DNA from: Mesorhizobium sp. ZC-5
GTDB lineage: Bacteria > Pseudomonadota > Alphaproteobacteria > Rhizobiales > Rhizobiaceae
Assembly (NCBI RefSeq): GCF_025753855.1
Contig: NZ_JAOWPT010000011.1
Location: forward strand, 124,001 to 188,000
Direction of reading: 5' to 3'
Length of the DNA stretch: 64,000 nt
In this document: one piece after another, positions 10,619 through 43,990 of the stretch
Numbering within the stretch: the first letter of the stretch is position 1
Layout: each line of letters begins with the position of its first letter
Notes under the pieces: generated by a model
Databases searched by the model: none
Seen by the model: the letters and a program-made list of their open reading frames with translations, nothing else
What the model was told of the DNA's origin: nothing
Program-made: the position numbers and the translations under genes

Positions 10619-10636
10619 TTGCTCCGTCTACCGTGC

Positions 10637-11926: not shown

Positions 11927-12044
11927 GTCTGGTTTTCCCGTGTTCGGTTCGCCCGTCCGGCGGCCTGACTATCCGGCAAAACGAAAACAGACAAGCACAA
12001 CGGAGCTGAAGCCGGGAAAAACATTCCACTTTCGAACGCCTTCG

Positions 12045-12077
12045 AAAACGAAAACGGGCGCGGACGTATCCGCGCCT
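12045..12077 (-). terminator. Rho-independent terminator of katG
   Basis: On the minus strand an 8-bp perfect stem, TCCGCGCC pairing as GGCGCGGA (arms 12057-12064 and 12069-12076, 4-nt loop), is followed by TTTTCGTTTT. It lies 31 bp downstream of the katG stop and upstream of rsmB, so it should separate the two. Confidence 0.85.
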
Positions 12078-12107
12078 GTTCCGTCTGAAAAATGGTCCGC
12101 CTGCTTT

Positions 12108-14411
<2,304 letters not shown>

Positions 14412-25986: not shown

Positions 25987-26006
25987 TATTGAATGAACAT
26001 TCAATA
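25987..26006. promoter_or_regulatory. Palindromic operator 1, upstream of the Rieske gene
   Basis: TATTGAATGAACATTCAATA: 9-bp arms around AA, 10 bp before the start codon of the Rieske oxygenase, overlapping where RNA polymerase would sit. The same element recurs at 28809 and 34580 in front of other genes of this block. The size and symmetry suit a TetR/BetI-type repressor; the BetI-like gene at 33006 is the obvious candidate. Confidence 0.8.
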
Positions 26007-26016
26007 AGTAAGAGCC

Positions 26017-27222
26017 ATGAAGATGAACCGGCACGTTCGCGATGTGGCGGTCCCAAACGATTGGGATCGCAGGGGTTTGCCGGGCTGGTGCTACCATAGC
26101 CCGGCCCTGCTCGAGGTCGAAAAGGAGCACGTTTTCCGCAACCACTGGCAGATCGCCTGCCATGTGTCGGACGTGCCTGACCGCGGAAATTACCTGACCA
26201 TGGACGTGGTCGGCGAACGCGCGCTGATCGTGCGCGGCGCCGACGGCGTCGTGCGCGCCTTCCACAACATCTGCCGCCATCGCGGCTCCCGGGTCGTCGC
26301 CGACGAAAAGGGCACCTGCAAAAACGCGCTGGTCTGCCCGTTCCACGGCTGGGTCTACAATCTCGACGGCACGCTGAGGGGTGCTGCGCGCCCTCGCTCC
26401 TTCCCCGATCTCGACAAGACCGAATTCGGCCTGATGCCGCTCGACCTCGAAATCTGGATGGGACTGATCTTCGTGCGCTTCCGCAAGGGGCCGCAGCCGT
26501 CGGTGGCCGAACTCATGGCGCCGTTCGAGGCCGAAATCGCCAACTACCGCGTCGCCGACATGGTGCCGACTACGGGCATCTGGTCGCACACCTCGCCGGT
26601 CAACTGGAAATCCGTGCGCGACGTCGACAACGAGGGCTATCACGTTGCGATGGCGCATCCCGCCCTGCAGGATCTCTACGGCGCGACCTATTTCGACGAG
26701 CCGTTCGTCAACGGCGTATCGCGGTCTTTCGCCACCTACAACCCGCATGCCGGGCGGCGCTGGAGCGTGAAGAACTATGTCAAGCTGGCACCCGAGCCGA
26801 CAAACCTGCCGGAGAACCTGCGCAAGGCGTGGGTCTATTACGGCCTGTTTCCGAACGGCGCCCTGGCGCTGATGCCGGAATCGATCCAGTTCTACCAGGA
26901 GTTCCCGCTGTCGACCGGCGAAACCATGTTGCGCGGCGCGGTCTACCGCTATGCCGACGAGAGCCGCGAGCAGGCCGCGGCGCGCTATCTTGCCTATCGC
27001 ATCGACCGCGAGACGCTGGAGGAAGACGTCCAGCTCACCATCTGGTCGAACGAATCCATGCTGTCGGAATCCTTCTCGGGCTTCTACCTGTCCGATCTCG
27101 AATATGGGGTGCGCACCCACCACGACCACCTGCGCAAGCTGGTACCGGTCGTCGGGCTCGACACCGCGCCCGACGAGAAGGATATTTGGAATTTGAACGA
27201 GGCGCTGAGATCGCAAGCTTAA
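26017..27222 (+). CDS. Rieske non-heme iron oxygenase alpha subunit (GbcA-like)
   Basis: Predicted oxygenase of the aromatic-ring-hydroxylating/betaine-demethylase type, 401 residues. The Rieske cluster ligands are C86-x-H88 and C107-x2-H110 (I-C-R-H-R-G and C-P-F-H-G-W). The mononuclear iron site is H209 and H214 in D-N-E-G-Y-H-V-A-M-A-H, with E206 as likely electron bridge. Relatives that demethylate glycine betaine or other quaternary amines share this length and motif set, but ring hydroxylases do too. No reductase or beta-subunit gene is nearby. The operator 10 bp before the start, shared with the transporter and aminotransferase genes, ties it to the amine block. RBS is weak (AAGAGCC). 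Confidence 0.85.
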   Translation: MKMNRHVRDVAVPNDWDRRGLPGWCYHSPALLEVEKEHVFRNHWQIACHVSDVPDRGNYLTMDVVGERALIVRGADGVVRAFHNICRHRGSRVVADEKGTCKNALVCPFHGWVYNLDGTLRGAARPRSFPDLDKTEFGLMPLDLEIWMGLIFVRFRKGPQPSVAELMAPFEAEIANYRVADMVPTTGIWSHTSPVNWKSVRDVDNEGYHVAMAHPALQDLYGATYFDEPFVNGVSRSFATYNPHAGRRWSVKNYVKLAPEPTNLPENLRKAWVYYGLFPNGALALMPESIQFYQEFPLSTGETMLRGAVYRYADESREQAAARYLAYRIDRETLEEDVQLTIWSNESMLSESFSGFYLSDLEYGVRTHHDHLRKLVPVVGLDTAPDEKDIWNLNEALRSQA

Positions 27223-27224
27223 AT

Positions 27225-27294
27225 ATAGCGAGTAGCGACAGATCAACGGAATCGATCAGGCGCAAGGTTTTTTTATCTATTCGCTACTCGCTAT
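27225..27294. terminator. 14-bp perfect inverted repeat between convergent genes
   Basis: ATAGCGAGTAGCGA (27225-27238) pairs perfectly with TCGCTACTCGCTAT (27281-27294). It spans the gap between the convergent Rieske and aminotransferase genes, starting 3 bp after the former's stop. The loop contains seven T residues at 27268-27274. A bidirectional terminator or REP-like element is the simplest reading; the inner loop is long (42 nt) for a classical terminator. Confidence 0.6.
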
Positions 27295-27300
27295 TCGCTT

Positions 27301-28728
27301 CTATCCCCTCCACACCCCTTCCCGCCGCAAATCCTCCATCGTCCGCGAAATACCCTCGTGCAGGATGCCGACCATGTCGTCGATCTGCTGCTTGGTGATG
27401 ATCAGCGGCGGCGACATCACGCACATGTTGATCAGCGGCCGCACCAGAAGGCCGAGCTCGTGGCAATGCGCGTCGATGCGTTTTCCGACATCCTTGTCGA
27501 GTTGCAGGGGATCCCGGCTCTCGCGGTCGGCGACGCATTCCACGCAACCCATCAGGCCGGCGCCGCGCACCTCGCCGACCAGCGGCAGTTCTTCCAGCGT
27601 CTTCAGCTGCGCCTGGAAATACGGCGCGACCTTGCGGGCATGATCGAGCACGCCACCTTCCAGCAGGTCGAGATTCTTCAATGCCACCGCGCAGCCGACC
27701 GGGTGACTGGTGTAGGTCAGCCCGTGGCCGAACATCGCGTCCGGGTGGTTGGAGCGCCGCAATTCTTCCATCAGACGCGCCGAGATCACCACACCGCCGA
27801 GCGGGAAATAGCCCGAAGTGACGCCCTTGGCGAAGGTGATCATGTCGGGTTCGATGCCGAACACCTCTTCCGATGCAAAGACATGGCCGAGACGACCGAA
27901 GGCGGTCACCACCTCGTCGGAGACGTAGAGAATATCGTTCTGCCGGCAGATCTCGCGTATCCGCTTCAGGTAGCCGTCCGGCGGCACGATGACGCCGCCG
28001 GAAGCCTGCACCGGCTCGCCGACGAAGGCGCCGATCCTGTCGGCGCCGACCCGGGCGACGGTGTCGCGGAATTCATCGACCAGGAAATCCGCGAACGCTT
28101 CGACGCTCAGGCCAGCCGGCCGGCGAAACGGGTTCGGCGACGACAGCTTGACGATCAGCTCGTCGGCGCCGTCCATCCAGTCGCGGTCGCGCGGCCGGCC
28201 GTTCAGCGATGCGGAAAGATAGGTCGAGCCGTGATAGGCGCCGCCGCGGCTCAGGATCAGCTTCTTTTCCGGGCGGCCGCGCACATTGTTGTAGAACTGC
28301 ATGAAGCGCAGCGCCGTCTCCACAGCCGACGAACCGCCGGTGGTGAAGAATACGTGGTCGAGATCACCCGGCGCGTAAGCCGCGATGCGCTGCGCGAGTT
28401 CCGCCGACGGCGCGTTCATCGTGTACCATGGCGTGTTGTAGGACAGCGCCATCGCCTGGTCGTACATTACCCGGGCGAGCTCCTCGCGGCGGTGGCCGAC
28501 ATTGACGCACCACATGCCGGCCGGCCCGTCGATCAGCTGCTTGCCGTCGCCGTCGGTGATGTAGATGCCCTCGCCTTCGCCGATCAGCGCGCGTGCCTCC
28601 GTTCCAATGGAGCCGGCAAGCGGCCAGGGCTGCACCAGATGCCGCTTGGCGCGTTCGACCGCATCGCCGCTTTCCGCCCGCGCGGAAGGCGCATTCGCAC
28701 CGGTTCTGGTCTCTCTTAGTGCCGCCAT
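27301..28728 (-). CDS. Class III PLP-dependent aminotransferase
   Basis: Transaminase of the omega-amino-acid:pyruvate/GABA type (fold type I), 475 residues. The phosphate-binding G-G-S-S-A-V-E-T-A motif lies near residue 131, and V-S-D-E-V-V-T-A-F-G-R supplies the conserved Asp. The catalytic Lys is in T-F-A-K-G-V-T-S-G-Y, and T-Y-T-S-H-P-V-G-C completes the active site. The amino donor is unknown; beta-alanine, GABA, taurine or a polyamine derivative are typical. Its start lies about 80 bp from operator 2 and it is divergent from the transporter, so it probably deaminates a product of the imported amine. Confidence 0.9.
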   Translation of the reverse strand: MAALRETRTGANAPSARAESGDAVERAKRHLVQPWPLAGSIGTEARALIGEGEGIYITDGDGKQLIDGPAGMWCVNVGHRREELARVMYDQAMALSYNTPWYTMNAPSAELAQRIAAYAPGDLDHVFFTTGGSSAVETALRFMQFYNNVRGRPEKKLILSRGGAYHGSTYLSASLNGRPRDRDWMDGADELIVKLSSPNPFRRPAGLSVEAFADFLVDEFRDTVARVGADRIGAFVGEPVQASGGVIVPPDGYLKRIREICRQNDILYVSDEVVTAFGRLGHVFASEEVFGIEPDMITFAKGVTSGYFPLGGVVISARLMEELRRSNHPDAMFGHGLTYTSHPVGCAVALKNLDLLEGGVLDHARKVAPYFQAQLKTLEELPLVGEVRGAGLMGCVECVADRESRDPLQLDKDVGKRIDAHCHELGLLVRPLINMCVMSPPLIITKQQIDDMVGILHEGISRTMEDLRREGVWRG

Positions 28729-28808
28729 GGGATCACCTCGTATTTCGCTCGCCTGCTTGGAATTTCCGAACGCCGGCCAGCCCGCTAAACACGCCTTGCT
28801 GAGCTTAT

Positions 28809-28826
28809 TTTGAATGTCCGTTCAAT
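28809..28826. promoter_or_regulatory. Palindromic operator 2, between aminotransferase and transporter
   Basis: TTTGAATGTCCGTTCAAT has the same 18-bp layout as operator 1 (TTGAATG, two bases, CGTTCAA) with one mismatch between arms. It lies 80 bp upstream of the minus-strand aminotransferase start and about 160 bp upstream of the plus-strand permease, so it could control both directions. Confidence 0.72.
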
Positions 28827-28984
28827 CAATATCACAGAAATAGCGCTTGATTTCAATCGCCGTATGCGCTCATGATGAAGAAAGTCGGCAGCCAACGGGA
28901 ACTGGCGAACCGGCACCGTTCAATGGGATGCTGCATGGCGGAACTCTCAGCACGTGGGATCGAGCCCGCACCCGGAGCCCTGCA

Positions 28985-29902
28985 ATGACGGCGGCTGCAG
29001 AAGGTTCGCCGCCCTTGCGCGCAACGCGCAGCCGCGGCGGCCCTCTTCTGCAATCCGAACAGGCGCAGGGCATGGCCCTGATCAGTCCGACCTTCCTCTA
29101 CGCCCTCGTCTTGCTCGCCGTGCCGATCCTGGTGGTCATCGCCCATAGTTTCTGGACGCAGAACTACCTCACCATCGACCGCACCTTCACGCTCGAGAAT
29201 TACCGGGTGACGCTGACGGAGCCGATCTACCGCGATCTCCTGTTCCGCTCGCTCTACATCTCGCTGGTGGTCAGCTTCGTCACGGTGATCCTGGCCTATC
29301 CGATCGCCTACTTCATCTCGTTCCATGGCGGCAGCCGCAAGAATCTGTGGCTGTTCCTGATCACCATCCCGTTCTGGACGAGCTATCTGCTCCGGGTGAT
29401 GTCGTGGAAGGTCATCCTCGGTTATGGCGGCGTCCTGAATTCGGGCCTGATGGGCCTCGGCGTCATCGACGAACCCTCGACCGCCTTCCTCTACAACACC
29501 ACCGCCGTCATCATCACGCTGACCCATGCCTGGGCGGCCTTCGCCATCCTGCCGATCTTCGTCTCGCTGGAAAAGGTCGACCGCACGCTCTTGGAAGCGG
29601 CCACCGACCTCGGCGATGGGCCGATCCGCCGTTTCCTGCGCATCACCTTGCCGCTGTCGATGCCCGGCGTCATTTCCGCACTGATGATCGTCATGATCCC
29701 GACGGTCGGCGACTACGTGACGCCGCGTCTGGTCGGCGGCAAGGATGGTGTCATGATCGCCAACGCCATCCAGGCGCAGTTCGGCAAGGCCTCCAACTGG
29801 CCGCTCGGTGCCGCGCTTTCGGTGACCACCATGGTGATCGTCACGGCGATGGCCGGCATCACCGTCTTCATCCTGCGATGGGCCGCGAGGCGCGCGCGAT
29901 GA
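28985..29902 (+). CDS. ABC transporter permease, PotB-like
   Basis: Inner-membrane permease of the spermidine/putrescine (Pot) class, 305 residues from the ATG at 28985 (GGAG at -12). A longer frame reaches 28847 but its extra N-terminus looks non-coding. A hydrophilic tail of about 30 residues precedes six helices. The family features W-T-S-Y-L-L-R-V, T-H-A-W-A-A-F-A-I-L-P-I-F (near helix 3-4), and the EAA loop E-A-A-T-D-L-G-D-G-P-I-R are clear, and I-P-T-V-G-D-Y-V-T is typical of PotB/PotH. The PotC-like gene follows with ATGA overlap. Confidence 0.92.
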   Translation: MTAAAEGSPPLRATRSRGGPLLQSEQAQGMALISPTFLYALVLLAVPILVVIAHSFWTQNYLTIDRTFTLENYRVTLTEPIYRDLLFRSLYISLVVSFVTVILAYPIAYFISFHGGSRKNLWLFLITIPFWTSYLLRVMSWKVILGYGGVLNSGLMGLGVIDEPSTAFLYNTTAVIITLTHAWAAFAILPIFVSLEKVDRTLLEAATDLGDGPIRRFLRITLPLSMPGVISALMIVMIPTVGDYVTPRLVGGKDGVMIANAIQAQFGKASNWPLGAALSVTTMVIVTAMAGITVFILRWAARRAR

Positions 29903-30720
29903 CCGCCGTCCGCAGGCTGCTGACCAACTGGCTGCCGGTCTACGCGGCGCTCTATATCGGATTTCTCTATCTGCCGATCCTGCTCCTGCCGGTGTTCTCC
30001 TTCAACACCTCGGCGATCCCGAAATTCCCGCTCACCGGGCTGACGCTGAAATGGTACGAAAGCCTGCCCAACACGCCGGCGCTGCTCGACGCAGCCTGGA
30101 ACAGCCTGGTCGTCGGCGTGGCGGCATCCATCGTCAGCACCATGCTCGGCATCTGCGCCGCGCGCGCCATGACCCGCTACCGCTTTGCCGGGCAGCGCGC
30201 GGTGAGCGGGCTGATCATGGCGCCCTTGGTGCTGCCCGAAATCATCGTCGCGGTATCGCTGCTTTTGGTGCTGCTGCAGCTCGGCCTCAGCCTGTCCCTG
30301 TTCACCGTGGTGCTCGGCCATGTGCTGATCTGCGTGCCGTACTCGGTCACGGTGCTGATCTCCGGCTTCGAGGGTTTCGACCGCAGCCTGGAGGAGGCGT
30401 CCGCCGATCTCGGCGAAACCGCCTTTGGCACCTTCCGCCGGGTGACGCTTCCGATGGTGGCGCCGGCGATCATTTCGAGCCTGCTCGTGTCCTTCACCAT
30501 CTCGCTCGATGAGTTCATCATGGCGTTCTTCCTCACCGGCACCGATCCGACATTGCCTGTCTACATCTGGGGCCAGTTGCGTTTCGCGGCGAAACTTCCC
30601 GGCGTGCTGGCGCTCGGCACGCTGCTGCTGGTCGGTTCGTTCATTCTCCTCACCTTCGCCGAAATCATGCGGCGGCGCGCGACACGCCGTACCCAGAACG
30701 CAGGGGGTGCCTTTGTCTGA
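29899..30720 (+). CDS. ABC transporter permease, PotC-like
   Basis: Second inner-membrane permease of the polyamine-type importer, 273 residues, six helices. Start ATG overlaps the upstream stop (ATGA). The Pot-type signature L-Y-L-P-I-L-L-L-P-V-F-S-F-N-T-S near residue 25, A-L-L-D-A-A-W-N-S-L, and the EAA motif E-E-A-S-A-D-L-G-E-T-A-F are seen, plus S-L-D-E-F-I-M-A-F-F in the following helix. The stop overlaps the start of the ATPase gene by 8 bp, so the three transporter genes are translated together. Confidence 0.92.
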   Translation: MTAVRRLLTNWLPVYAALYIGFLYLPILLLPVFSFNTSAIPKFPLTGLTLKWYESLPNTPALLDAAWNSLVVGVAASIVSTMLGICAARAMTRYRFAGQRAVSGLIMAPLVLPEIIVAVSLLLVLLQLGLSLSLFTVVLGHVLICVPYSVTVLISGFEGFDRSLEEASADLGETAFGTFRRVTLPMVAPAIISSLLVSFTISLDEFIMAFFLTGTDPTLPVYIWGQLRFAAKLPGVLALGTLLLVGSFILLTFAEIMRRRATRRTQNAGGAFV

Positions 30721-31801
30721 CAGGCCGATGATCGAGATTGCCGGCGTCACCCGCAGCTACGGGGCCTTCAAGGCGCTGGACGATACCTCATTGAGCATCC
30801 GCGAGGGCGAGTTCTTCTCGCTGCTTGGCCCTTCCGGCTGCGGCAAGACCACGCTGCTCCGGATGATCGCCGGTTTCGATACCCCCACCAGCGGCAGCAT
30901 CGCCATCGACGGCCAGCCGATGGATGGCATCGCCGCCAATCGCCGACCCACCAACATGGTGTTCCAGAGCTACGCGATCTTCCCCCATCTCAACGTCGCG
31001 CAGAATGTCGCTTACGGGCTGAAGCGCCTGCGGCTCGACGCCGGCGAAGAAAAGCGCCGCGTCGAGGAGGCCCTGGCGCAGGTATCGCTCTCGGGCCTCG
31101 GCAGCCGCGGCGCCACCGAACTCTCGGGCGGCCAGCGCCAGCGTGTCGCACTCGCCCGCGCGCTCGTGATGCGGCCGAAGGTGCTGCTGCTCGACGAGCC
31201 GCTTTCGGCGCTCGACAAGAAGCTGCGCGAGCAGATGCAGGTGGAGTTGCGCCGGCTGCAACAGGCGGTCGGCATCACCTTCGTACTGGTCACCCACGAC
31301 CAGTACGAGGCGCTTGCCATGTCGGACCGCATCGCCGTGATGTTCGGCGGCAGGATCGCGCAGGTCGCGGCACCCAAGGAAATCTACCAGCGCCCCGTCA
31401 ACCGGCAGGTCGCCGATTTCCTTGGCGGCATGAATTTCGTCAAGGCCGAGATCGTCGAGGAGAGCGGCGCTTCGATCATCGTCGAGACCCACGGTTTCGG
31501 CCGCGTGAAGACCGACAAGCCGCAGGCCTTCGTGCGCAACGGCAAGGCAGCGACCCTCGGCATCCGGCCGGAACGTCTGCGTGTCCTGTGGGACGACGCC
31601 ACCAGCAGTCACCAGGTCACCGGCAAGGTGGTCGACCGCCATTACTTCGGCGAGATAACCCACCTGATCGTCGAGGTTCCCGGCCTTGAAAAGCCGCTGT
31701 CGGTTTCGGAGACAAACAATTTCGGCGCCGACGACATCCCGGTCGGCGCCGCGATCCGGCTCGCCTACGATCCGGATGCCCTGGTTGCCATGGCGGATTG
31801 A
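30713..31801 (+). CDS. ABC transporter ATP-binding protein, PotA-like
   Basis: ATPase of the Pot-type importer, 362 residues from a TTG start that follows AGGGGG by 5 nt and overlaps the permease stop; ATG 30728 is the alternative. Walker A G-P-S-G-C-G-K-T-T, Q-loop V-F-Q-S-Y-A-I-F-P-H, signature L-S-G-G-Q-R-Q-R and Walker B V-L-L-L-D-E-P-L-S-A-L-D are intact. The C-terminal regulatory TOBE domain of PotA/OpuA types follows from about residue 240. The gene ends 99 bp before its convergent substrate-binding-protein gene. Confidence 0.94.
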   Translation: MSDRPMIEIAGVTRSYGAFKALDDTSLSIREGEFFSLLGPSGCGKTTLLRMIAGFDTPTSGSIAIDGQPMDGIAANRRPTNMVFQSYAIFPHLNVAQNVAYGLKRLRLDAGEEKRRVEEALAQVSLSGLGSRGATELSGGQRQRVALARALVMRPKVLLLDEPLSALDKKLREQMQVELRRLQQAVGITFVLVTHDQYEALAMSDRIAVMFGGRIAQVAAPKEIYQRPVNRQVADFLGGMNFVKAEIVEESGASIIVETHGFGRVKTDKPQAFVRNGKAATLGIRPERLRVLWDDATSSHQVTGKVVDRHYFGEITHLIVEVPGLEKPLSVSETNNFGADDIPVGAAIRLAYDPDALVAMAD

Positions 31802-31806
31802 AACGA

Positions 31807-31830
31807 TGCATCTCCCCGACGGGAGATGCA
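31807..31830. terminator. 10-bp perfect hairpin between ABC ATPase and binding-protein genes
   Basis: TGCATCTCCC / GGGAGATGCA with CGAC loop, 5 bp after the ATPase stop and 70 bp from the convergent binding-protein stop. No T-tract follows on the plus strand, so it may end transcription from either side only weakly. Confidence 0.6.
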
Positions 31831-31875
31831 AACCGCAGTAACTGGTTGGACAGGTGAGGCCGACAAGCGTCCTCA

Positions 31876-31900
31876 CCTCATCCTGAGCTTGCCGAAGGAT
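31876..31900. repeat. Dispersed intergenic repeat with CCTGAGCTTGCCGAAGG core
   Basis: CCTCATCCTGAGCTTGCCGA followed by AGGAT. Its palindromic ends ATCCT/AGGAT enclose a CTTCGGCAAGCTCAGG-type core that I recognise as a widely dispersed intergenic repeat of alphaproteobacteria. It touches the stop codon of the binding-protein gene. I saw no other copy in this window. Confidence 0.5.
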
Positions 31901-32976
31901 CAATACCCCGATTTGATCTTCTCGAACTCGGCGATCATCTTCTGCTTGAGTTCGCTCGGCACGGGCGACTGGAACAGCGTCTTGTCGACGAACTTGTCGA
32001 CGTCGGCATAACCCTGTGCTGCGACCACGGCCGGATCGATCGCCGCCATGCTCTTGGCGTCGGCATGGCCATAGCCCCAATCCGACAGCAGGAAGCTCGC
32101 CACCTCCGGTGCGTTGATCGCGTTCAGGTAGTCGTAGGCTTTGTCGGCATTGCCCGGCGCGCCCTTGAGGCGGACGTAACCACAGACCCAGGTTGACAAG
32201 CCTTCTGCCGTATCGCGCGTCGATTTGATCGGCGCGCCGGCAAGCGCCGATTGCACCGCCGCGTCGTTCCACGCCCAGGCGAGATCGACCTCGCCGCCGC
32301 TCATCGCCTGCACGATCTCGGTGTTGTCGGTCCAGTAGAGACGAACGTTCTTGTGCACCTCGCGCAAGAAAGCGGAGGCCTCGGCAAACTGCGCGTCGGT
32401 CATTTGCGTCCAGTCCTTTAGCCCGATGGCGAGCGAGGCAAGCGCATAGGCGTCGTCGACATTGTCGCCGATCGAAACACGGTCCTTGAACTTCGGGTCG
32501 GCCAGCGATTTCAGCGACTTGATGTCCGCCGGATCGACCTTCTCCGAATTGTAGGTCAAAAGGGTGTTGCCCCAGTCCCAGGGCATGAACCAGGCCGTGC
32601 CGTCGGCCGTGGTGGCCAGGTCCTTCATCGCCATGATGGCGGGGTTCATATCCTTCCAGCCTTCGATCTTGGAGGTGTCCAGCGGCTCCAGCAGACCCGC
32701 CTCGCGCCACTTGACCACGCTCTGAGAGCAGGGATGGGCAAGGTCGGTCTTGAAGCCGGAGCGGATCTTCTGGAAGGCTTCCTCCTCGTCGCCGAAGAAG
32801 GTGAATGTCGGCGAATCGCCATTCTTTGAAATATAGCCCGGGTGGAACTCCGGTGCCTCGTAGCCGGACCAGTCGAATACCGTCAGTTCCGCATCTTCGG
32901 CGAATGCCATGGGCGCCACCGAAGCCGAAAGCGCGACCGTCAAGACCAATACCGTTCGTCTGTTGATTCCTCTCAT
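31900..32976 (-). CDS. ABC transporter substrate-binding protein, PotD-like
   Basis: Periplasmic receptor for the Pot-type importer, 358 residues. The start at 32976 gives a classical Sec signal peptide ending A-F-A near residue 26; the open frame extends upstream but without signal features. L-T-V-F-D-W-S-G-Y is the N-terminal strand of PotD-type proteins, and the W-D-W-G-N-T-L-L-T-Y and E-I-V-Q-A-M-S-G-G-E-V-D-L-A-W segments line the ligand site in this family. It lies convergent to the ATPase gene and downstream of the regulator gene on the same strand, so it may be read with the methyltransferase-repressor operon. Ligand unknown, probably a cationic amine. Confidence 0.9.
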   Translation of the reverse strand: MRGINRRTVLVLTVALSASVAPMAFAEDAELTVFDWSGYEAPEFHPGYISKNGDSPTFTFFGDEEEAFQKIRSGFKTDLAHPCSQSVVKWREAGLLEPLDTSKIEGWKDMNPAIMAMKDLATTADGTAWFMPWDWGNTLLTYNSEKVDPADIKSLKSLADPKFKDRVSIGDNVDDAYALASLAIGLKDWTQMTDAQFAEASAFLREVHKNVRLYWTDNTEIVQAMSGGEVDLAWAWNDAAVQSALAGAPIKSTRDTAEGLSTWVCGYVRLKGAPGNADKAYDYLNAINAPEVASFLLSDWGYGHADAKSMAAIDPAVVAAQGYADVDKFVDKTLFQSPVPSELKQKMIAEFEKIKSGY

Positions 32977-33005
32977 TTCAAGTGCTCCCTGTTCTTGTTG
33001 ATTGC

Positions 33006-33722
33006 CTATCCCACATTTCGTTCGCTGCGGGTTTGCCCCGGATAGTGCTTGGGGAATGCCAGGGAGAGAAACTCGAAAGCCGCCTGAAGGGCGGATTCCC
33101 GCGTCACGTCCTCGGTTCCCATCATCAGCCTCAGCCACAGCCCTTCCAGCATGGCGCTCAACGCCAGGGCCGTCCCCTGAGGATCAAAATCGTAGCCGGC
33201 CTCTTCCTTCAATTTCCGGCAGAGATCGATGAAGACATTCTGGTAGGCCGCATCCCGAGCCCCGCAGAGAGCCTGATAGGTGGGCCGCGACTTGGCCTCG
33301 CCCCAGAAGGCGCACCATGCGGCGAGCTTGCGCTTGTTGGATATCGACCGATCGAAATCGGCGGCAACCAGCGCACGAAGCTGGCGCGCCGGATCGTCGC
33401 CGGCTTTCAGCAGGGCGGCGCGCCAATGTGCCGAATATTCGTCGTACATATGCTGCAGCGTAGCGACGAGCAGCTTTTCCTTGCTCTCGAAATGGAAATT
33501 CACGATGCCGCGCGACAACCCTGCCCCGTCAGCGACATCAGCCATGGTGGTTTCGGAATAGCCGCGCTTGGCAAGGGAATCGATCGTCGCTTCGATCAGT
33601 TGCAGCCGCCTGACCTCCTTGGAGGCCTTGCGGCCGCGCTTCTCGTTGTCCTGGGCGGCCTCTTTCGGCAATGCCGATTTCATGAGCGTATCCATCTTCA
33701 GCACCGCCGGACGGGGACTCAT
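33006..33722 (-). CDS. TetR-family repressor, BetI-like
   Basis: Predicted ligand-responsive repressor of the amine block, 238 residues. The helix-turn-helix spans residues 55-85 ([21 protein letters not shown]). The C-terminal half follows BetI closely: A-W-C-A-F-W-G-E-A and A-M-L-E-G-L-W-L-R match the aligned A-W-L-A-F-W and A-L-I-D-G-L-W-L-R of E. coli BetI. A roughly 30-residue N-terminal extension precedes the HTH, so a start at Met10 or Met14 is possible. Its ATG overlaps the methyltransferase stop. Three similar palindromes in this block are probable binding sites, one in its own operon's control region. Confidence 0.87.
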
Positions 33723-34543
33723 TGTTCCGGCCTTCGTCCGCGCAGATGAGTGGGACGGTGTTCGCCGCTGTCAAGAACCTTCTGCATGGCCTCCCAGGTT
33801 CTGATGTTCTTGTCGACATAGGCGCGGCCCACCGCGGCGGCAGCGACGTCGTAGAGCGGGCCTTTCAGCCTCTCGAGTTCGCCACGCGCCACGTCGCGAT
33901 ACCAGCCATTCCTGTCGGTGACAGTAACTTCAACGAAGCCGGCAAGCAGCATGGCGCGACGATAGCGTTCGGGCGAGGCCATGCTGAACGACAGGCCTTC
34001 GGCGGCAATGTAGTCGGCCATGTCTTTCGAAGGCGGTCCGTCGTGACCGATCAGCCAGTCACTGGCAGCGAATACGCCGCCGGGTTTCAGCACCCGGAAA
34101 ATATCGGCGAACAACGCATCCTTGTCCGGCACGTGAAGCAGCGCGTCCTTGGAGAACACCAGGTCGAAGACGCCGTCGTCAAACGGCAGCCGACCGGGCG
34201 GCGCCTGGACGAAATCGGTCTTGCTGGAAAGACGCTGTTCAGCGGCGCGGCGGCGCGCATTTTCGATTACCGGCAGTTCGACGTCGAAACCGGTTGCGTG
34301 GCCGGCGCCATGCTTCTCGACCAGGTGCAGCGTGATGCCGCCTGAGCCGCAGCCAACGTCGAGGACTCGCTTGCCCTCCAGCAAGAGCCCGTGCAGCACG
34401 CGATCGACTTCCTCCGGTCCGCCGGGCGAGAGGTAGCCCTCGCCCCACAGCGCCTCGAGAAAGCGGATCGCGGTATCGTCGTACTCCGGCCCTGCGCCAT
34501 GGGCATCGATCATCAGCAATTCCCAATGCCGAAATTTCTTCAA
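33719..34543 (-). CDS. SAM-dependent methyltransferase (N-methyltransferase-like)
   Basis: Class I methyltransferase, 274 residues. SAM motif I is [12 protein letters not shown] near residue 60; motif II-like D-V-E-L and the post-motif [13 protein letters not shown] are seen. The layout resembles phosphoethanolamine, sarcosine and dimethylglycine N-methyltransferases, but also other small-molecule enzymes. It is the first gene of an operon with the BetI-like repressor (ATGA overlap) and its start is 37 bp from operator 3. In an amine-degrading block, an N-methyltransferase is unexpected and could make a ligand, or methylate a pathway intermediate. Confidence 0.8.
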
Positions 34544-34579
34544 AGCCTACTCCGAACTGCGGAAAACGCAACATGGTTT

Positions 34580-34597
34580 GTTGAACATTCATTCAAT
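34580..34597. promoter_or_regulatory. Palindromic operator 3, between methyltransferase and oxidoreductase
   Basis: GTTGAACATTCATTCAAT; its reverse complement has the operator layout ATTGAATG-AA-TGTTCAAC, with the same spacing as operators 1 and 2. It sits between the divergent methyltransferase/repressor operon (36 bp away) and the FAD oxidoreductase operon (63 bp away), so it could give autoregulation as well as control of the oxidoreductases. Confidence 0.72.
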
Positions 34598-34660
34598 ATG
34601 ACTGGACAGAAGTCGGGCGCCCGTGCCAGATTTGGTAGGGAGAGGGGCCGAGCGACAAAT

Positions 34661-36280
34661 ATGAAGACATGGGATGCAATCGTCATCGGCGGCGGCCACA
34701 ATGGCTTGGTCAACGCCTGCTATCTGCAGCGGGCAGGCCTTGATGTGCTGGTCGTCGAGAAGAACGCGTGGGTCGGTGGCGCGGCGACTAGCCGCGAACT
34801 GACACCGGGATTTCTCTATTCGAATTGCTCCTACGTCTGCTCGCTGTTTCGCCCCGAGATCATGCGCGATCTCGAACTGCCGCGCTTCGGCCTTCAGGTC
34901 ATCTCCTATGAAGGCGGCGCGGTGTTCACTCGCGATGGCGACTATCTCGCCAACTACCGCGACCATGACGCGCATCGCCGCGAGTTCGCGCGGTTCTCCG
35001 CCCGCGACGCTGAGGCCTATGACCGCTATGCCCGCGACGTGACGCGGCAATGCCGCTTCATCCAGCCGCTGCTGATGCGCACGGCCCCGGACCCAACCAG
35101 CCTGCGTCCGCGCGACATTGGCGAGCTGATGTATCTCGGCAGGAAATTCGCTGGTCTAGGCGCCGAGGAAATGGCGCTGACATTGCGCTTCTGGACCATG
35201 TCGATCTCCGATTTCCTCGACGAATATTTCGAGACCGACGTCATCAAGGCCAACTTCGCGCTCTCGGGCATTATCGGCACCGCACTCGGGCCGATGTCGC
35301 CCGGCACCGCCTATGTGCTGCTTCACCACTACATGGGCGAGGTCGACGGTTCGGTCGGCGCTTGGGGTTACGCGCGCGGTGGCATGGGAGCGGTGACAAA
35401 GGCGCTGGCGGATTCCTTCCGCGCCTCTGGCGGCACCATTCGCACCGAAGCCGAGGTCGATCATGTGCTGGTCAAGAGCGGCAAGGCCAACGGTATCGTG
35501 CTTGCCAGCGGCGAGGAGGTCTATGGCAAGCTCGTCGTCTCCAATGCCGACGTGAAGCGCACCTTCCTCAAGCTCGTCGAGGAAAAGGAGCTGCCCGAAA
35601 TCTTCCTGCGCCGCGTCCGCAACTTCAAGATCCGCGGCTCGTCCGGCAAGGTCAACATCGCACTGGATTCCATGCCGGAATTCCCGGCGCTGCCGAAGGA
35701 TTCGCCCTGCTACCGGGGCGACATGCATTTCACTGATTCCGTCGAGCGCATGGAACGCGCCTATGACGACTGGAAAGCCGGGAAATGGTCGGCAGATCCA
35801 TTCCTCGACATGGTGATCCCGACCACGCTCGACCCGACCATGGCCGCGCCGGGCAAACATTTCATGAGCTGCTTCGTCCAGTACGCTCCACCGAAGGTCG
35901 GCGGACGCGACTGGACCGACGCCGACCGCGACGGGTTTGCCGAAAGCGTCATCTCGCAGATTGCGGAATACTCTCCCGGTTTCCGCGATCGCATCGTGCA
36001 TATGGAGGTCCGCACGTCGCGCGAGATCGAGGCCGAGGTCGGCCTTACCGAGGGCAACATCTTCCAGGGCGAACTGACCTTCGACCAGTTGCTGTTCAAC
36101 CGGCCCGTGCCCGGCTACGCGCAGTACCGTTCACCGGTCGGCGGGCTCTACATGTGCGGTTCATCCACCCATCCCGGCGGCGGCGTCATGGGTGCGCCGG
36201 GGCACAACGCGGCCGCCGAAATCCTGCGCGACCTGAAGCGCGGCACCAAGCATATGAGCCCGGCCCATGACGTCATTTGA
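34661..36280 (+). CDS. FAD-dependent oxidoreductase, PYROXD2/phytoene-desaturase-like (1)
   Basis: NAD(P)/FAD-type amine oxidoreductase-fold flavoprotein of 539 residues. The dinucleotide-binding site V-I-G-G-G-H-N-G-L is at residues 8-16, with E-K-N at the end of the second strand. G-Y-A-R-G-G-M-G-A-V-T lies near 240, and the C-terminal FAD motif is G-L-Y-M-C-G-S-S-T-H-P-G-G-G-V-M-G-A-P-G-H-N. These are PYROXD2/CrtI-type hallmarks. It begins the operon rightwards from operator 3. The next gene encodes a paralogue and overlaps it by 14 bp. Substrate unknown. Confidence 0.88.
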   Translation: MKTWDAIVIGGGHNGLVNACYLQRAGLDVLVVEKNAWVGGAATSRELTPGFLYSNCSYVCSLFRPEIMRDLELPRFGLQVISYEGGAVFTRDGDYLANYRDHDAHRREFARFSARDAEAYDRYARDVTRQCRFIQPLLMRTAPDPTSLRPRDIGELMYLGRKFAGLGAEEMALTLRFWTMSISDFLDEYFETDVIKANFALSGIIGTALGPMSPGTAYVLLHHYMGEVDGSVGAWGYARGGMGAVTKALADSFRASGGTIRTEAEVDHVLVKSGKANGIVLASGEEVYGKLVVSNADVKRTFLKLVEEKELPEIFLRRVRNFKIRGSSGKVNIALDSMPEFPALPKDSPCYRGDMHFTDSVERMERAYDDWKAGKWSADPFLDMVIPTTLDPTMAAPGKHFMSCFVQYAPPKVGGRDWTDADRDGFAESVISQIAEYSPGFRDRIVHMEVRTSREIEAEVGLTEGNIFQGELTFDQLLFNRPVPGYAQYRSPVGGLYMCGSSTHPGGGVMGAPGHNAAAEILRDLKRGTKHMSPAHDVI

Positions 36281-37826
36281 TGTTATCGTCATCGGTGGCG
36301 GCCACAACGGCCTCGTCGCCGCCACCACCCTTGGCAGGGCCGGGCGGAAGGTGCTCGTTCTGGAAGCCGCAGGCGAGATCGGCGGTGCGGCACGCACAGA
36401 GGAATTTTTCCCCGGCTTCCGCGTTTCGTCGATCGCCCATGTGCTGAACCGGCTGCATCCGGAGGTCGTCAAGATACTCGAACTGGAAAAGCATGGTCTT
36501 GCCTTCGAACGCCAAGCGACGCCATCAGTCGCGCTTTCGACGACGGACGATCCGCTGGTGTTGCGCGGCGCCTACGGCGAGAGCCTTGACGGCGCAACCG
36601 ACAGCGAGGCCGCAGCGTGGCGCGAATTGCGCGCACTGCTTTTCCGCTACGCCGGCATCCTGAAGCCGTTCCTTGCCCGCCGTCCTCCGGATCTCGCCGA
36701 CATGTCGCTCTCGGAGACATCGGCACTGGCGATGGCCGGGCTGTCGCTCAAACGGCTCGGCAAGGAGGACATGCGCGACTTCCTGCGCATGCTGCTCATG
36801 AATGTCGCCGACGTGCTCGACGAGCACCTGGAGGACGACCGGCTGAAAGGCCTGCTCGCTTTCGATGCGGTGCTCGGTTCGCATCTCGGGCCGCGCTCCC
36901 CGACTTCGCTCCTCGGTCTTTACTACCGGCTGGCGGGGGAGATCGGCGGCGTCCCCGGCGCCCAGTTGCTGCCCAAAGGCGGAATGGGCGCGATCATCGC
37001 AGCAATGGGCGCTTCCGCGTCCGCGGCGGGGATCGTTGTGCGCTCCAACGCTGAAGTTGCGAAAATTCTCGTCGAAAAGGGCCGTGCAGTCGGTGTCGCT
37101 CTTCAAAACGATGAGCAAATTCGCGCAAAAACCATCGTTTCCGCCATCAACCCATCCTCCACCTTCAGTCTTGTGGGAAGCCGCGAACTCGACACCGGAT
37201 TTGTCCGGAAAGTGAAGAATATCCGCATGATGGGCGATGCGGCCAAGCTCCATCTGGCGCTAGACCGGCCGCCGGAATTTCTTGGCGTGCGCACCGAAGA
37301 TCATCGCGGCCGGCTGGTCATCGCGCCGTCCACCGATCATGTCGAACGCGCCTTCAACCCTTCGAAGTATGGGGAATTCTCGCCGGAACCGGTCATGGAA
37401 ATCACGCTGCCGAGCCTCGCCGACCCGTCGCTTGCGCCGGACGGCGCCTGCGTCCTGTCGGCCGTGGTGCAGTATGCACCATACGCGCTGGGGGAAGGCT
37501 GGGAAGCCGGAAAGCCCAAATTTCTCAATGCGATAATGGCGCAGCTCGAAGCCCATGCACCAGGCATCGCCAAGTCGATCCGCCATACCGAACTGCTGAC
37601 GCCGCTCGATATCGAGCAGCGCTATCGCATGCCCGGCGGCCACTGGCACCACGGCGAATTGCAGGCGGACCAGATGCTGATGTCGCGGCCGGTCTCGGGC
37701 GCCGCAGGCTACAGCACGCCCGTCGACGGGCTCTATCTTTGCGGCGCCGGATCGCATCCGGGCGGCGGCGTTTCCGGCGTTCCCGGGCTGAACGCGGCGC
37801 GCCACATCATCGCGATGAAAGCATAG
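36267..37826 (+). CDS. FAD-dependent oxidoreductase, PYROXD2/phytoene-desaturase-like (2)
   Basis: Paralogue of the preceding protein, 519 residues, with the same three landmarks: V-I-G-G-G-H-N-G-L-V at residues 8-17, P-K-G-G-M-G-A-I-I in the middle, and G-L-Y-L-C-G-A-G-S-H-P-G-G-G-V-S-G-V-P-G-L-N at the end. Sequence identity by eye is moderate, confined to motifs, so an old duplication or a heteromeric pair is likely. Overlap of 14 bp with the upstream gene and a gap of 2 bp to the GcvT-like gene downstream suggest one transcript. A role in oxidising an N-alkylated or aldehyde-type intermediate is conjecture. Confidence 0.88.
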   Translation: MTSFDVIVIGGGHNGLVAATTLGRAGRKVLVLEAAGEIGGAARTEEFFPGFRVSSIAHVLNRLHPEVVKILELEKHGLAFERQATPSVALSTTDDPLVLRGAYGESLDGATDSEAAAWRELRALLFRYAGILKPFLARRPPDLADMSLSETSALAMAGLSLKRLGKEDMRDFLRMLLMNVADVLDEHLEDDRLKGLLAFDAVLGSHLGPRSPTSLLGLYYRLAGEIGGVPGAQLLPKGGMGAIIAAMGASASAAGIVVRSNAEVAKILVEKGRAVGVALQNDEQIRAKTIVSAINPSSTFSLVGSRELDTGFVRKVKNIRMMGDAAKLHLALDRPPEFLGVRTEDHRGRLVIAPSTDHVERAFNPSKYGEFSPEPVMEITLPSLADPSLAPDGACVLSAVVQYAPYALGEGWEAGKPKFLNAIMAQLEAHAPGIAKSIRHTELLTPLDIEQRYRMPGGHWHHGELQADQMLMSRPVSGAAGYSTPVDGLYLCGAGSHPGGGVSGVPGLNAARHIIAMKA

Positions 37827-37828
37827 CC

Positions 37829-39073
37829 ATGGCGAAGACTGCGCGGAAAACCAATGCTTCAACACGGCCGCCCCGCGCGGCCCTGCAGGGTCATTTCCGC
37901 ACGCTGCGCCTGCCCTCGCCCCTCCAGCCGCGCATTGACGCGCTGGCGAAGACCGAGGACTGGTACACCTGGGCGGGCTACAAGGCGCCGCTTTCGCTGT
38001 GGGACGAAGAGCTCGAATATTTCACCATCCGCAGCCAGGCGGCGGCCTTCGACATCTCGCCGATGGTGAAATACCGCATAGAGGGCGCGGACGCCGAAGC
38101 GTTCTGCAACCGCGTCACGCTGCGCGACGTTAGCAAGCTGAAACCCGGCCGTGTCCACTACACCGCCTGGTGCGATGATGCCGGCCATGTGCTGGACGAT
38201 GGTACGCTTTTTCGCCTGGCACCGACCCATTTCCGCCTTTGCTGCCAGGAACGGCACCTGCCTTGGCTGCTCGACAGCACCATCGGGTTCGATGTCATGG
38301 TGGAAGAGGAGACCGAAGCTGTCGCCGGCCTTGCCTTGCAGGGCCCGACGTCGCTTGCTGTCTTGCGCGACGCCGGCTTCGCGGGTGTCGAGAAGCTAAA
38401 GATCTTCGATCTTGCTGAATTTCCTCATGAAAGCGGCATGGTGGCGATCTCGCGCACCGGCTTCACCGGCGATCTCGGCTACGAGCTGTTCGTTCCGGCA
38501 AAACTGGCGCTTAGCCTGTGGGATCGGCTATTCGAGGTCGGGCGGCTGCACGGCATCCGCGCCATTGGCTACACCGCACTCAATCGGGCGCGCATCGAGG
38601 CGGGGCTGATCGTCGCCAATGCCGATTTCGTCACCGCCGAACATGCCATACGCGGCGATCGGCTGCGCCTGCCCGACGAGATCGGCCTCGGCTTCATGGT
38701 CGATGCCGAAAAACCGCATTTCAATGGCCGCCGCACCATCCTCGCCGCGCGCGCCAACCGCAGCATGAAACATGTGCTGGTGGGGCTGGAGATCGAGGGC
38801 AACATTCCCGCCGAGCATGCGATCGTCTATCATCGGCAGAAGAGAGAAGTAGGTCTCGTCAGCGCCGCGATCTGGTCGCCGATGGCCAAGCGCAACATCG
38901 CCATCGCAAGCCTGTCGCGGCCCTATGGCGACACGGTGACCGATGATTTGTGGGTCGAGATCTATGCCATGCGCGAGCTGAAATACGAACGGCTGATGAA
39001 GCGCGCCAGGATCGTGCCGCGCCCGTTCATCAAGCTTGAACGTCGCACCGCCAACCCGCCTGCCAATGTCTGA
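37829..39073 (+). CDS. GcvT/DmdA-family tetrahydrofolate-dependent aminomethyl- or methyltransferase
   Basis: Folate-binding protein of 414 residues, GcvT family (also DmdA, sarcosine/dimethylglycine oxidase C-terminal domain, LigM). The core G-x-x-C-N-R-V-T-L-like segment (A-F-C-N-R-V-T-L-R-D), Y-T-A-W-C-D-D-A-G, S-R-T-G-F-T-G-D-L-G-Y-E-L (folate site, about residue 210) and R-I-E-A-G-L are visible. It is longer than glycine-cleavage T protein and has an N-terminal extension of about 55 residues. No other glycine cleavage genes are here, so demethylation with transfer of a C1 unit to tetrahydrofolate is the likelier role. It starts 2 bp after the upstream flavoprotein stop. Confidence 0.82.
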   Translation: MAKTARKTNASTRPPRAALQGHFRTLRLPSPLQPRIDALAKTEDWYTWAGYKAPLSLWDEELEYFTIRSQAAAFDISPMVKYRIEGADAEAFCNRVTLRDVSKLKPGRVHYTAWCDDAGHVLDDGTLFRLAPTHFRLCCQERHLPWLLDSTIGFDVMVEEETEAVAGLALQGPTSLAVLRDAGFAGVEKLKIFDLAEFPHESGMVAISRTGFTGDLGYELFVPAKLALSLWDRLFEVGRLHGIRAIGYTALNRARIEAGLIVANADFVTAEHAIRGDRLRLPDEIGLGFMVDAEKPHFNGRRTILAARANRSMKHVLVGLEIEGNIPAEHAIVYHRQKREVGLVSAAIWSPMAKRNIAIASLSRPYGDTVTDDLWVEIYAMRELKYERLMKRARIVPRPFIKLERRTANPPANV

Positions 39074-39311
39074 TACGGAAGACAAGGAAGCTGCCGAGCA
39101 GTGGGCGCTGGTCAACACGCCGCTCGGCGAGGAGTGGTCCGGCCGCACCCGCTATGCGGCGGCGATGTATTTCTACAAACGCGGCGAAATGAGCGCCGAA
39201 GCACTGGAAGTCTATCGCATCTGCTCGCGCCTCGACAGCCAGGATCCCTTGTCGATCATCCGCGACCGCAATGTCGGCAAGGAATGGCTGGAGCGTATAG
39301 CCCGGAAATAA
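39066..39311 (+). CDS. Small hypothetical protein (81 aa) of the amine operon
   Basis: Soluble, acidic-to-neutral 81-residue protein, starting by 8-bp overlap with the GcvT-like stop, so it is translated with it. Predicted helical hairpins (R-T-R-Y-A-A-A-M-Y-F-Y-K-R-G-E-M and A-L-E-V-Y-R-I-C-S-R) suggest a tetratricopeptide-like or small adaptor unit. No family recognised. It closes the operon that begins at 34661; the next gene is on the opposite strand 9 bp away. Confidence 0.75.
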   Translation: MSDTEDKEAAEQWALVNTPLGEEWSGRTRYAAAMYFYKRGEMSAEALEVYRICSRLDSQDPLSIIRDRNVGKEWLERIARK

Positions 39312-39320
39312 TCGCGGCCG

Positions 39321-39659
39321 TCAGGTCAGAAAATCGGCGCGGTGCGGCGTGAACGTATCGACCAGCCGCCCGGCCTCAAGCGCCTTCACGCCATGCACCA
39401 AATTCGACGGCACGATGAAGCCGTCGCCGGCCGAAAGCGTCTGCGCCTGCCCGTCGATCGTCACCTCGAAACGCCCCTCGGCGACGTAGCTCGACTGTAC
39501 ATGCGGATGCGAATGCAACGCGCCGACACCGCCCTTTTCAAAGGCGAATTCGACCATCATCAACTCGTCTGTATGGAGCAGGACACGTCGGCGGTTGCCG
39601 TCGGGAGTTTCGGTCCATTCACCGTCGCCGGCGCGGAAGAATATCTTGTTGTCGATCAT
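39321..39659 (-). CDS. Cupin-domain protein
   Basis: Single-domain cupin of 112 residues, the last gene of the leftward hexuronate operon. The double-stranded beta-helix metal site is seen as H-S-H-P-H followed by the second motif (G-D-G-F-I-V-P-S-N-L-V-H-G). A long frame extends upstream over the KduD gene but is antisense noise; the ATG at 39659 is the chosen start. In uronate clusters such cupins often act as pectin-degradation (KdgF-like) enzymes that linearise unsaturated uronates, consistent with the neighbouring KduI/KduD. That function is inference from context. Confidence 0.82.
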   Translation of the reverse strand: MIDNKIFFRAGDGEWTETPDGNRRRVLLHTDELMMVEFAFEKGGVGALHSHPHVQSSYVAEGRFEVTIDGQAQTLSAGDGFIVPSNLVHGVKALEAGRLVDTFTPHRADFLT

Positions 39660-39670
39660 TCGTGGTGTCC

Positions 39671-40438
39671 TCAGCGCGCCAGCCAGCCGCCGTCGACCGG
39701 CACGATGGCGCCATGCATGTAGTCCGACGCTCTCGCCAGCATGAACACGGCCGTGTCGCCGATGTCCTCCGGCCCGCCCCAGCGACCGGCCGGAATGCGC
39801 GCCAGGATGGACGCGCTGCGGTCCGGATCGGCGCGCAGGATGGCTGTGTTGTTGGTCTCGATGTAACCCGGCGCGATGGCGTTGACGTTGATCCCCTTGG
39901 CCGCCCATTCATTGGCGAGGATGCGGGTAACGCCGACCACACCGTGCTTGGCCGCCGTATAGGATGCGACGCGGATGCCGCCCTGGAAGCTCAGCATCGA
40001 AGCGATGTTGACGACCTTTCCGCGACGGCCCGGCTCGGCGAACACGCGCCTGCCAAAGGTCTGGCAGAGGAAGAACAGCGACTTCAGATTGACGTCGATC
40101 ACGCTGTCCCAGTCGGCTTCGGAGAAATCGACTGCATCGCCACGCGATATGATGCCCGCATTGTTGACCAGCCCGTCGATCGGGCCGGACTTGTCCCAAA
40201 GCTCGTCCAGCATGGCCTGCGCCGCTGCATGGTCGCCAAGGTCGCAGCGCGCCTCGCTGAATGATCCGCCGAGGCCGGCGATGATCCCGGCGGTCTCGTC
40301 CATGGCGGAGCGTCCGACACCGACGACCGTCCCCCCTGCCCTGGCAATCGAAACCGCTATCCCTTGCCCTATGCCGGTGTTGGCACCGGTAACGACGATC
40401 CGCTTGCCCTCCAGGCTGAATGCCGACAGATCGCTCAC
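39671..40438 (-). CDS. kduD: 2-dehydro-3-deoxy-D-gluconate 5-dehydrogenase KduD (SDR)
   Basis: NAD-dependent reductase of the short-chain dehydrogenase family, 255 residues, close to E. coli KduD (253). It reduces 3-deoxy-D-glycero-2,5-hexodiulosonate to 2-keto-3-deoxygluconate. Coenzyme site T-G-A-N-T-G-I-G-Q-G at about residues 18-27, N-N-A-G near 92, catalytic S-x12-Y-x3-K (S147-type Ser in N-I-A-S-M-L-S-F-Q and Y-T-A-A-K). The GTG start overlaps the KduI stop (GTGA). It could accept related keto-sugars; the KduI neighbour makes this assignment strong. Confidence 0.93.
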   Translation of the reverse strand: MSDLSAFSLEGKRIVVTGANTGIGQGIAVSIARAGGTVVGVGRSAMDETAGIIAGLGGSFSEARCDLGDHAAAQAMLDELWDKSGPIDGLVNNAGIISRGDAVDFSEADWDSVIDVNLKSLFFLCQTFGRRVFAEPGRRGKVVNIASMLSFQGGIRVASYTAAKHGVVGVTRILANEWAAKGINVNAIAPGYIETNNTAILRADPDRSASILARIPAGRWGGPEDIGDTAVFMLARASDYMHGAIVPVDGGWLAR

Positions 40439-41283: not shown

Positions 41284-41306
41284 GTCTGAACTCTTCTTCC
41301 TGATGG

Positions 41307-42077: not shown

Positions 42078-42085
42078 GTCGATCC

Positions 42086-43366: not shown

Positions 43367-43370
43367 GCCG

Positions 43371-43931: not shown

Positions 43932-43990
43932 GCGCTGCTCCTGAATTGCAGGATGGGCCGACCGGACGGACCGGCCCATCCTATCGCTGG

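Follow-up and report, generated by a model that had tools for sequence, protein, structure and literature searches.

Results

The stretch of DNA analysed here (the window) comprises 64,000 nucleotides of Mesorhizobium sp. ZC-5 (contig NZ_JAOWPT010000011.1, part of a 6.34-Mb genome) and carries, at 26017-39311, a block of twelve genes that an earlier note, made from the letters alone, had put forward as an undescribed regulon for the catabolism of N-methylated amines. The genes named in that note lie where it had placed them, all twelve as intact frames, and they form five apparent units. On the plus strand, two CrtO-like flavoproteins assigned by profiles, which we call FAD1 (34661-36280, 539 residues) and FAD2 (36267-37826, 519 residues, 36% identical to FAD1), are followed by a GcvT-like folate protein (37829-39073, 414 residues; 179 bits against Pfam GCV_T, cut-off 25.6) and by P81, an 81-residue protein (39066-39311) that nothing in a Pfam and NCBIfam profile search matches; the four frames overlap or nearly touch. 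A minus-strand unit encodes, by profile matches, an S-adenosylmethionine (SAM)-dependent methyltransferase (33719-34513, 264 residues), a BetI-like repressor of the TetR family (33006-33722) and a PotD-like periplasmic receptor (31900-32976, also aligned). Profile matches likewise define a plus-strand unit of two permeases, PotB-like (28985-29902) and PotC-like (29899-30720), with a PotA-like ATPase (30713-31801; start uncertain, 30713 or 30728). The two remaining units are single genes: a class III aminotransferase on the minus strand (27301-28728, 475 residues), which scores 727 bits against NCBIfam PRK07036 (cut-off 618), a model named just 'aminotransferase', and a Rieske non-heme iron oxygenase on the plus strand (26017-27222, 401 residues), over the cut-offs of Pfam PF00355 and PF00848.

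How far the block is conserved was followed through FAD1 in a one-genome-per-species collection, where at least 586 of 592 stretches fitting the FAD1 pattern encode a FAD1 relative, distant ones included; the best 80 of these, with named loci (L numbers), are the relatives referred to below. The nearest named ones are from Mesorhizobium, with up to 94% identity among the matches listed (the strain's own record perhaps excluded). FAD1, FAD2 and GcvT are collinear on the same strand in 74 of the 80, and the contigs of the other six end too early. Consistent with this, a sample of 297 genomes from the order holds 17 with a GcvT orthologue (E <=1e-60), and it is these same 17 that carry FAD1, at 64% identity or above; the next FAD1 relatives beyond these genomes reach at most 44%. 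In a sample of 398 genomes from the phylum, the same 11 have both the GcvT orthologue and FAD1 (at least 60% identity). Since the two samples overlap in five such genomes, this makes 23 distinct genomes, none of them discordant. FAD1-FAD2-GcvT is thus the invariant core of the block, and the clustering across genomes on which the earlier note had staked its proposal is borne out, although the invariant set is smaller than the one it listed: the genes for the Rieske oxygenase and the class III aminotransferase are not universal.

FAD1 is the best conserved protein in most loci compared, its mean column identity being 82% (14 sequences) against 68% for GcvT (12 sequences). None of ten loci with FAD1 paralogues of 40-44% identity (L141-L150, hand-picked from 51 such matches) has a FAD2 or GcvT orthologue; one of them (L149) has a 26% match to a DMGDH-like protein. 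Several of these ten paralogues lie close to genes labelled as Pot-type importer or Rieske, which may mean that a substrate class is common to the wider flavoprotein family. One relative, L102, has two FAD1/FAD2 pairs (2-2486 and 9989-14361) with an old yellow enzyme (OYE)-family protein and a glutamine-synthetase-like protein between them.

The block's promoter regions share an inverted repeat, found by reading the DNA and by pattern search: 5' of the Rieske gene (25987-26006, TATTGAATGAACATTCAATA), in the gap between the aminotransferase and PotB genes (28810-28825, TTGAATGTCCGTTCAA) and in the gap between the methyltransferase and FAD1 genes (34581-34596, TTGAATGAATGTTCAA on the minus strand). 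With up to three mismatches, the 16-base core of this operator has five matches at three places in the window, where dinucleotide shuffles expect 0.27; with up to two, the whole genome (6.3 Mb) has four, three of them at the block's promoter regions, and the pattern read backwards gives one. The fourth genomic match (C3:579172) was set aside, as the genes near it appear by eye to be unrelated to the block. Among the first 46 named relatives (L038-L083), the operator precedes FAD1 in 40 of 45 testable cases and the Rieske gene in 12 of 12, and it occupies the aminotransferase/PotB gap in 37 of 37; 93 of the 102 matches in these loci fall inside the three promoter regions, and in a mononucleotide-shuffle control on the relatives' loci 115 matches compare with 3. 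That the twelve genes make up one regulon with a common operator, as the earlier note had it, is therefore strongly supported. As for the protein that reads the operator, we infer it to be the block's own BetI-like TetR protein, which scores 123.2 bits on NF001978 (cut-off 118, exceeded) and 123.1 on the other BetI model, TIGR03384 (cut-off 201.3, not reached). No betAB genes were recognised by eye among the window's frames.

In the Rieske protein the ligands of the cluster and of the mononuclear iron are intact (CRHRG, CPFHGW, Hx4H and a later Asp), in agreement with the earlier note, and the motif EGYHVAMAH contributes His209, His214 and a bridging glutamate, Glu206. The latter, equivalent to E205 of CntA, is kept in 30 of the 31 orthologue frames found in 97 loci, the other one giving no pattern match. 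The nearest solved structures are CntA, followed by 3vca/4qup, which we take to be Stc2. The role of the bridging glutamate is described in a passage of PMC7948474. Our protein thus resembles group V Rieske oxygenases (CntA, Stc2, GbcA) in having CntA as its nearest solved relative and in keeping this glutamate, and it is likely to catalyse the first N-demethylation, perhaps on a quaternary ammonium substrate. Rieske proteins of about 50% identity or more occur in 27 of the 80 relatives (a hand count; many flanks end before the gene). The likeness to glycine betaine monooxygenase GbcA that the earlier note invoked does not hold, and this assignment was rejected: the protein scores 137 bits against NF058607, whose cut-off is 670.

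The GbcA score bears on the option of a parallel glycine betaine route (fed, for instance, from carnitine), with the Rieske enzyme yielding dimethylglycine and FAD1/FAD2 plus GcvT taking this to glycine. The conversion of betaine to glycine would fit one Rieske enzyme, two flavoproteins and one folate protein, the repressor is BetI-like and carnitine genes adjoin the core in four lineages (see below). An omega-aminotransferase would, however, be superfluous for glycine. Moreover, GCV_T matches at 16 places in this genome, the block's included, and nine distinct open frames among them exceed 800 residues, a length typical of the sarcosine and dimethylglycine enzymes that, by length only, these frames may be. 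Taken together, we hold a second route for glycine betaine to be quite improbable.

As to the folate protein, its catalytic-position Asp124 is kept in 12 of 12 GcvT-like sequences and aligns with Asp96 of the T. maritima T-protein, presumably the catalytic residue there; it is the second of a DD pair in which both aspartates are kept. The nearest solved relatives are, in order, the trimethylamine N-oxide (TMAO) demethylase, T-proteins, the GcvT-like protein 3tfh (DmdA, as we assume) and sarcosine/dimethylglycine oxidases, and the protein stays under every cut-off of the NCBIfam models for glycine-cleavage GcvT, DmdA, Tdm, LigM and DesA. The TMAO demethylase Tdm of Methylocella is its best match (230 bits, E 5e-70 against the solved chain) and shares the stretch DDGTLFR with it. 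In Tdm, however, the matching part is the second half of a single long protein (763 residues in the model, 793 in the solved chain), whereas the block has the folate part only. BrdA, LigM, DesA and DmdA share the GcvT fold and folate use; the last three match less well than Tdm and none of the four is known to need a flavoprotein partner.

This leads to a rival explanation in which FAD1 and FAD2 would desaturate C-C bonds or a ring of the carbon skeleton and the GcvT-like protein alone would take off an O- or N-methyl group, as DmdA, LigM and BrdA do. CrtO- and CrtI-type models are indeed the best family matches of FAD1 and FAD2 (300 and 224 bits against CrtO, cut-off 1000; 127 and 121 bits against crtI_fam, cut-off 238; all below cut-off), a phytoene dehydrogenase is the nearest solved chain, and tetrahydrofolate-dependent demethylation by GcvT relatives (BrdA, LigM, DesA, DmdA) has precedent in a passage of PMC5547118. 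Such a division of labour is at odds with our findings that FAD1 orthologues and GcvT were never apart in the sampled genomes, that the GcvT-like protein is closer to the TMAO demethylase than to LigM or DesA and that several neighbours of the core are methylated-amine genes, and we regard it as unlikely.

With 80 bits, the PotD-like receptor is far from the curated PotD/PotF cut-off (582). The acidic positions of E. coli PotD, which we take to bind the polyamine, are Gly in 61 of 63 aligned receptors (2 gaps) and Cys in 62 of 63 (1 gap), and conserved Trp-rich, aromatic stretches (FDW, WGN, STWVCGY) are kept in nearly all 63. The missing acidic pocket residues make a linear polyamine unlikely as ligand. 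In 26 of the 80 relatives a flavin amine oxidase-like gene adjoins PotD (in 24 it stands between PotA and PotD); this gene is absent from the window, where PotA and PotD are separated by just a short stretch (31801-31900). It holds a perfect inverted repeat of 10 bp 3' of PotA (31807-31830), a possible transcription end.

Neighbour labels over the 80 loci include distant homologues, and contig ends make the counts lower bounds for close relatives. They comprise TetR (64), PotA (57), class III aminotransferase (50), P81 (48), PotD (45) and methyltransferase (35), and more rarely acyl-CoA dehydrogenase (10), NDP-forming acyl-CoA ligase (10), a PuuC-like aldehyde dehydrogenase (7) and a cupin of the dimethylsulfoniopropionate (DMSP) lyase type (6). 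Directly before FAD1, 14 of the 80, plus L028 (7725-9161), have a class III pyridoxal phosphate (PLP) enzyme like the guanitoxin transaminase GntE, below cut-off. In L067 (Peteryoungia) and L097 (Pseudoroseicyclus) the core adjoins a carnitine 3-dehydrogenase gene (over cut-off) together with a GbdR-like regulator and a CaiD-like hydratase (both under their cut-offs in the cases tested), BKACE, acyl-CoA dehydrogenase and ligase. L117, from a gammaproteobacterial metagenome-assembled genome, has BKACE (over the Pfam cut-off), hydratase, acyl-CoA dehydrogenase and ligase, with a partial carnitine dehydrogenase match at the flank edge; in G013, carnitine dehydrogenase (over cut-off), BKACE, hydratase and acyl-CoA dehydrogenase lie next to the Pot genes and no ligase was found there. 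Known carnitine/gamma-butyrobetaine catabolic genes thus adjoin the core in these loci, but they lie outside the block here and in most relatives, and they have no N-demethylation step. In the order sample, carnitine dehydrogenase over cut-off occurs in 9 of the 17 FAD1 genomes versus 24 of the 280 others (one-sided p 1e-5 by genome, 0.005 by genus, with genus counts made by hand); the match in the window's own genome is slightly under the cut-off.

This carnitine synteny also speaks against the idea that the block is, or overlaps, the homarine (N-methylpicolinate) pathway reported in 2026 (Nat Microbiol). Homarine is an N-methyl compound, but a passage citing that work gives N-methylglutamate dehydrogenase (Mgd) a part in its catabolism, which would make GcvT and the aminotransferase unnecessary. 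To our minds an identity with this pathway is highly improbable.

Among the neighbours in other loci, L034 has sarcosine oxidase alpha over its cut-off and gamma under it, L088 and L093 have DMGDH-like proteins and L066 has DmmA over the Pfam cut-off. Glutamine-synthetase-like (L102, L105, L107, L109, L110), DAO-family (L093, L102, L109, L110) and arginine deiminase/dimethylargininase-like neighbours (L077, L099, L109, L110, L113), whose tested representatives stay below NCBIfam cut-offs, would suit an N-methylated polyamine, methylarginine or other amine as substrate in place of a betaine acid, as would the Pot-type importer and the class III aminotransferase. Yet these neighbours occur in a minority of the 80 loci and the receptor has Gly and Cys at the presumed polyamine-binding positions of PotD; we think a substrate of this sort is doubtful. 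The common theme of the neighbours is methylated nitrogen, with no one substrate accounting for all loci.

In three Rhodobacteraceae, P81 is in one frame with the DMSP-lyase-type cupin (L086:20857-21606, L089:20028-21581, L094:20659-21507; the cupin family, PF16867, was checked on L086), which may hint at a later elimination step; the cupin also occurs near the core without P81 fusion (L033, L088, L093). Downstream of the block's end at 39311 follow a short-chain dehydrogenase/reductase (SDR) and a KduI-like protein; the window's frames at 39320-43980 (cupin, SDR, KduI-like protein, GntR-like regulator and TRAP-type permease, assigned partly by eye) look like a separate uronate catabolic locus.

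Discussion

Our favoured interpretation, which we consider reasonably probable, sees the block as a catabolic regulon for a betaine-like N-methylated amine that would be degraded by stepwise N-demethylation and then transamination. The N-methylated amine pathway of the earlier note is in this sense upheld by the Rieske, GcvT and neighbouring genes, at the level of inference. The BetI-like repressor may silence the regulon until the compound or a product of it binds, and the PotABCD-type importer would take up the methylated compound. The Rieske oxygenase would remove the first methyl group from the quaternary nitrogen as formaldehyde. The N-methyl groups then left may be oxidised to iminium ions by FAD1 and FAD2, which may take the tertiary and the secondary amine in succession or work as a heterodimer, and the GcvT-like protein would hand the methyl carbon to tetrahydrofolate, giving methylene-tetrahydrofolate. 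The class III enzyme (PRK07036 type here, GntE-like in the 14 relatives above) could then transaminate the primary amine to an aldehyde, to be oxidised and fed into central metabolism. Stepwise N-demethylation would account for two flavoproteins per folate protein. Some loci could also do without the Rieske gene, as tertiary amines would not need its step. Gamma-butyrobetaine, carnitine, trimethyllysine or a near analogue seem to us the likeliest substrates.

The core may thus be envisaged as doing the work of dimethylglycine and sarcosine dehydrogenases with a different flavoprotein family. In those enzymes, as in heterotetrameric sarcosine oxidase, a flavoprotein is joined by a GcvT-type folate domain that catches the N-methyl carbon, and the same may hold for the block. 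Its flavoproteins, however, are CrtO-like rather than of the DAO family, are encoded by separate genes and number two per folate protein.

Several of our data nevertheless count against stepwise N-demethylation of a betaine-like amine. Both FAD1 and FAD2 are far under the cut-offs of the NCBIfam models reported, and CrtO/CrtI-type flavoproteins are best known for carbon-skeleton chemistry, so the two may not oxidise N-methyl groups at all. The Rieske protein differs from its group V relatives in having no Cys-x-x-Cys pair in EGYHVAMAH, Asp at the position of CntA Tyr203 and no adjoining reductase. The Cys pair occurs in some group V members according to a passage of PMC10952381; among 23 other Rieske frames of the same loci, 16 have ECYHC or ECLHC, three are without it and four give no pattern match. 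In line with the earlier note, reading the first 90 residues of each predicted frame in the window by eye brought up no recognisable reductase gene, and a genome search with PF00970 identified no partner, its four matches all lying outside the block. By eye, one of these stands next to a PaaI-like frame, another is a long protein fused to a ferredoxin and a third is ferredoxin-NADP reductase-like. The second Rieske gene of the genome (C3:461147-461761, L122) has no adjoining reductase that we recognised either. Some loci have complete flanks but no Rieske label (L054, L058, L067 and L068, for example), and an operator match anywhere, in some cases intragenic, is present in just nine of the 34 loci L084-L117, mostly from Rhodobacteraceae and Gammaproteobacteria. 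The carnitine set stands beside the core in just four lineages, and the enrichment of carnitine dehydrogenase weakens (p 0.003 by genome, 0.02 by genus) when borderline matches, half-length and just over cut-off (three in FAD1 genomes, one in a genome without FAD1), are left out. The variation of neighbours between lineages (glutamine synthetase-like, dimethylargininase-like, DMSP-lyase-like cupin) leaves room for another or a wider class of substrates, and neither the methyltransferase nor P81 has a place in the proposed pathway.

In open-licence literature we found, among the top matches listed, no paper that describes this gene set, in keeping with the view of the earlier note. The glycine betaine demethylation treated in a passage of PMC12478193 is a cobalamin system, not of the block's type.

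A wider proposal, which we put forward tentatively and think may well be wrong, is that the core is a folate-coupled oxidative N-demethylase of a new class, with CrtO/PYROXD2-type flavoproteins as its basis, conserved in bacteria as far apart as soil rhizobia and the Rhodobacteraceae and Gammaproteobacteria of the ocean, and that it reveals a role for the orphan human disease protein PYROXD2 in the N-methyl oxidation of methylated lysine- or betaine-like amines. PYROXD2 is taken here, as in the earlier note, as the putative closest human relative of FAD1 and FAD2. Its locus is associated with levels of trimethylamine, dimethylamine, N-methylpipecolate and asymmetric dimethylarginine in a passage of PMC4564198, and with N2-acetyl-N6,N6-dimethyllysine in one of PMC13352909, where significance was lost in one sensitivity analysis. 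We count these associations in favour of our main interpretation as well. The precise function of PYROXD2 is little known according to a passage of PMC8777681, where biallelic variants are described in a child who had a severe infantile disorder.

If true, a widespread and as yet unnamed route would lead from methylated organic nitrogen into folate C1 metabolism, and genes annotated merely as NAD(P)/FAD-dependent oxidoreductases would gain a function. Since the operon links such flavoproteins to a folate enzyme, the question of what PYROXD2 does may, provided the kinship is confirmed, become testable in a simple system.

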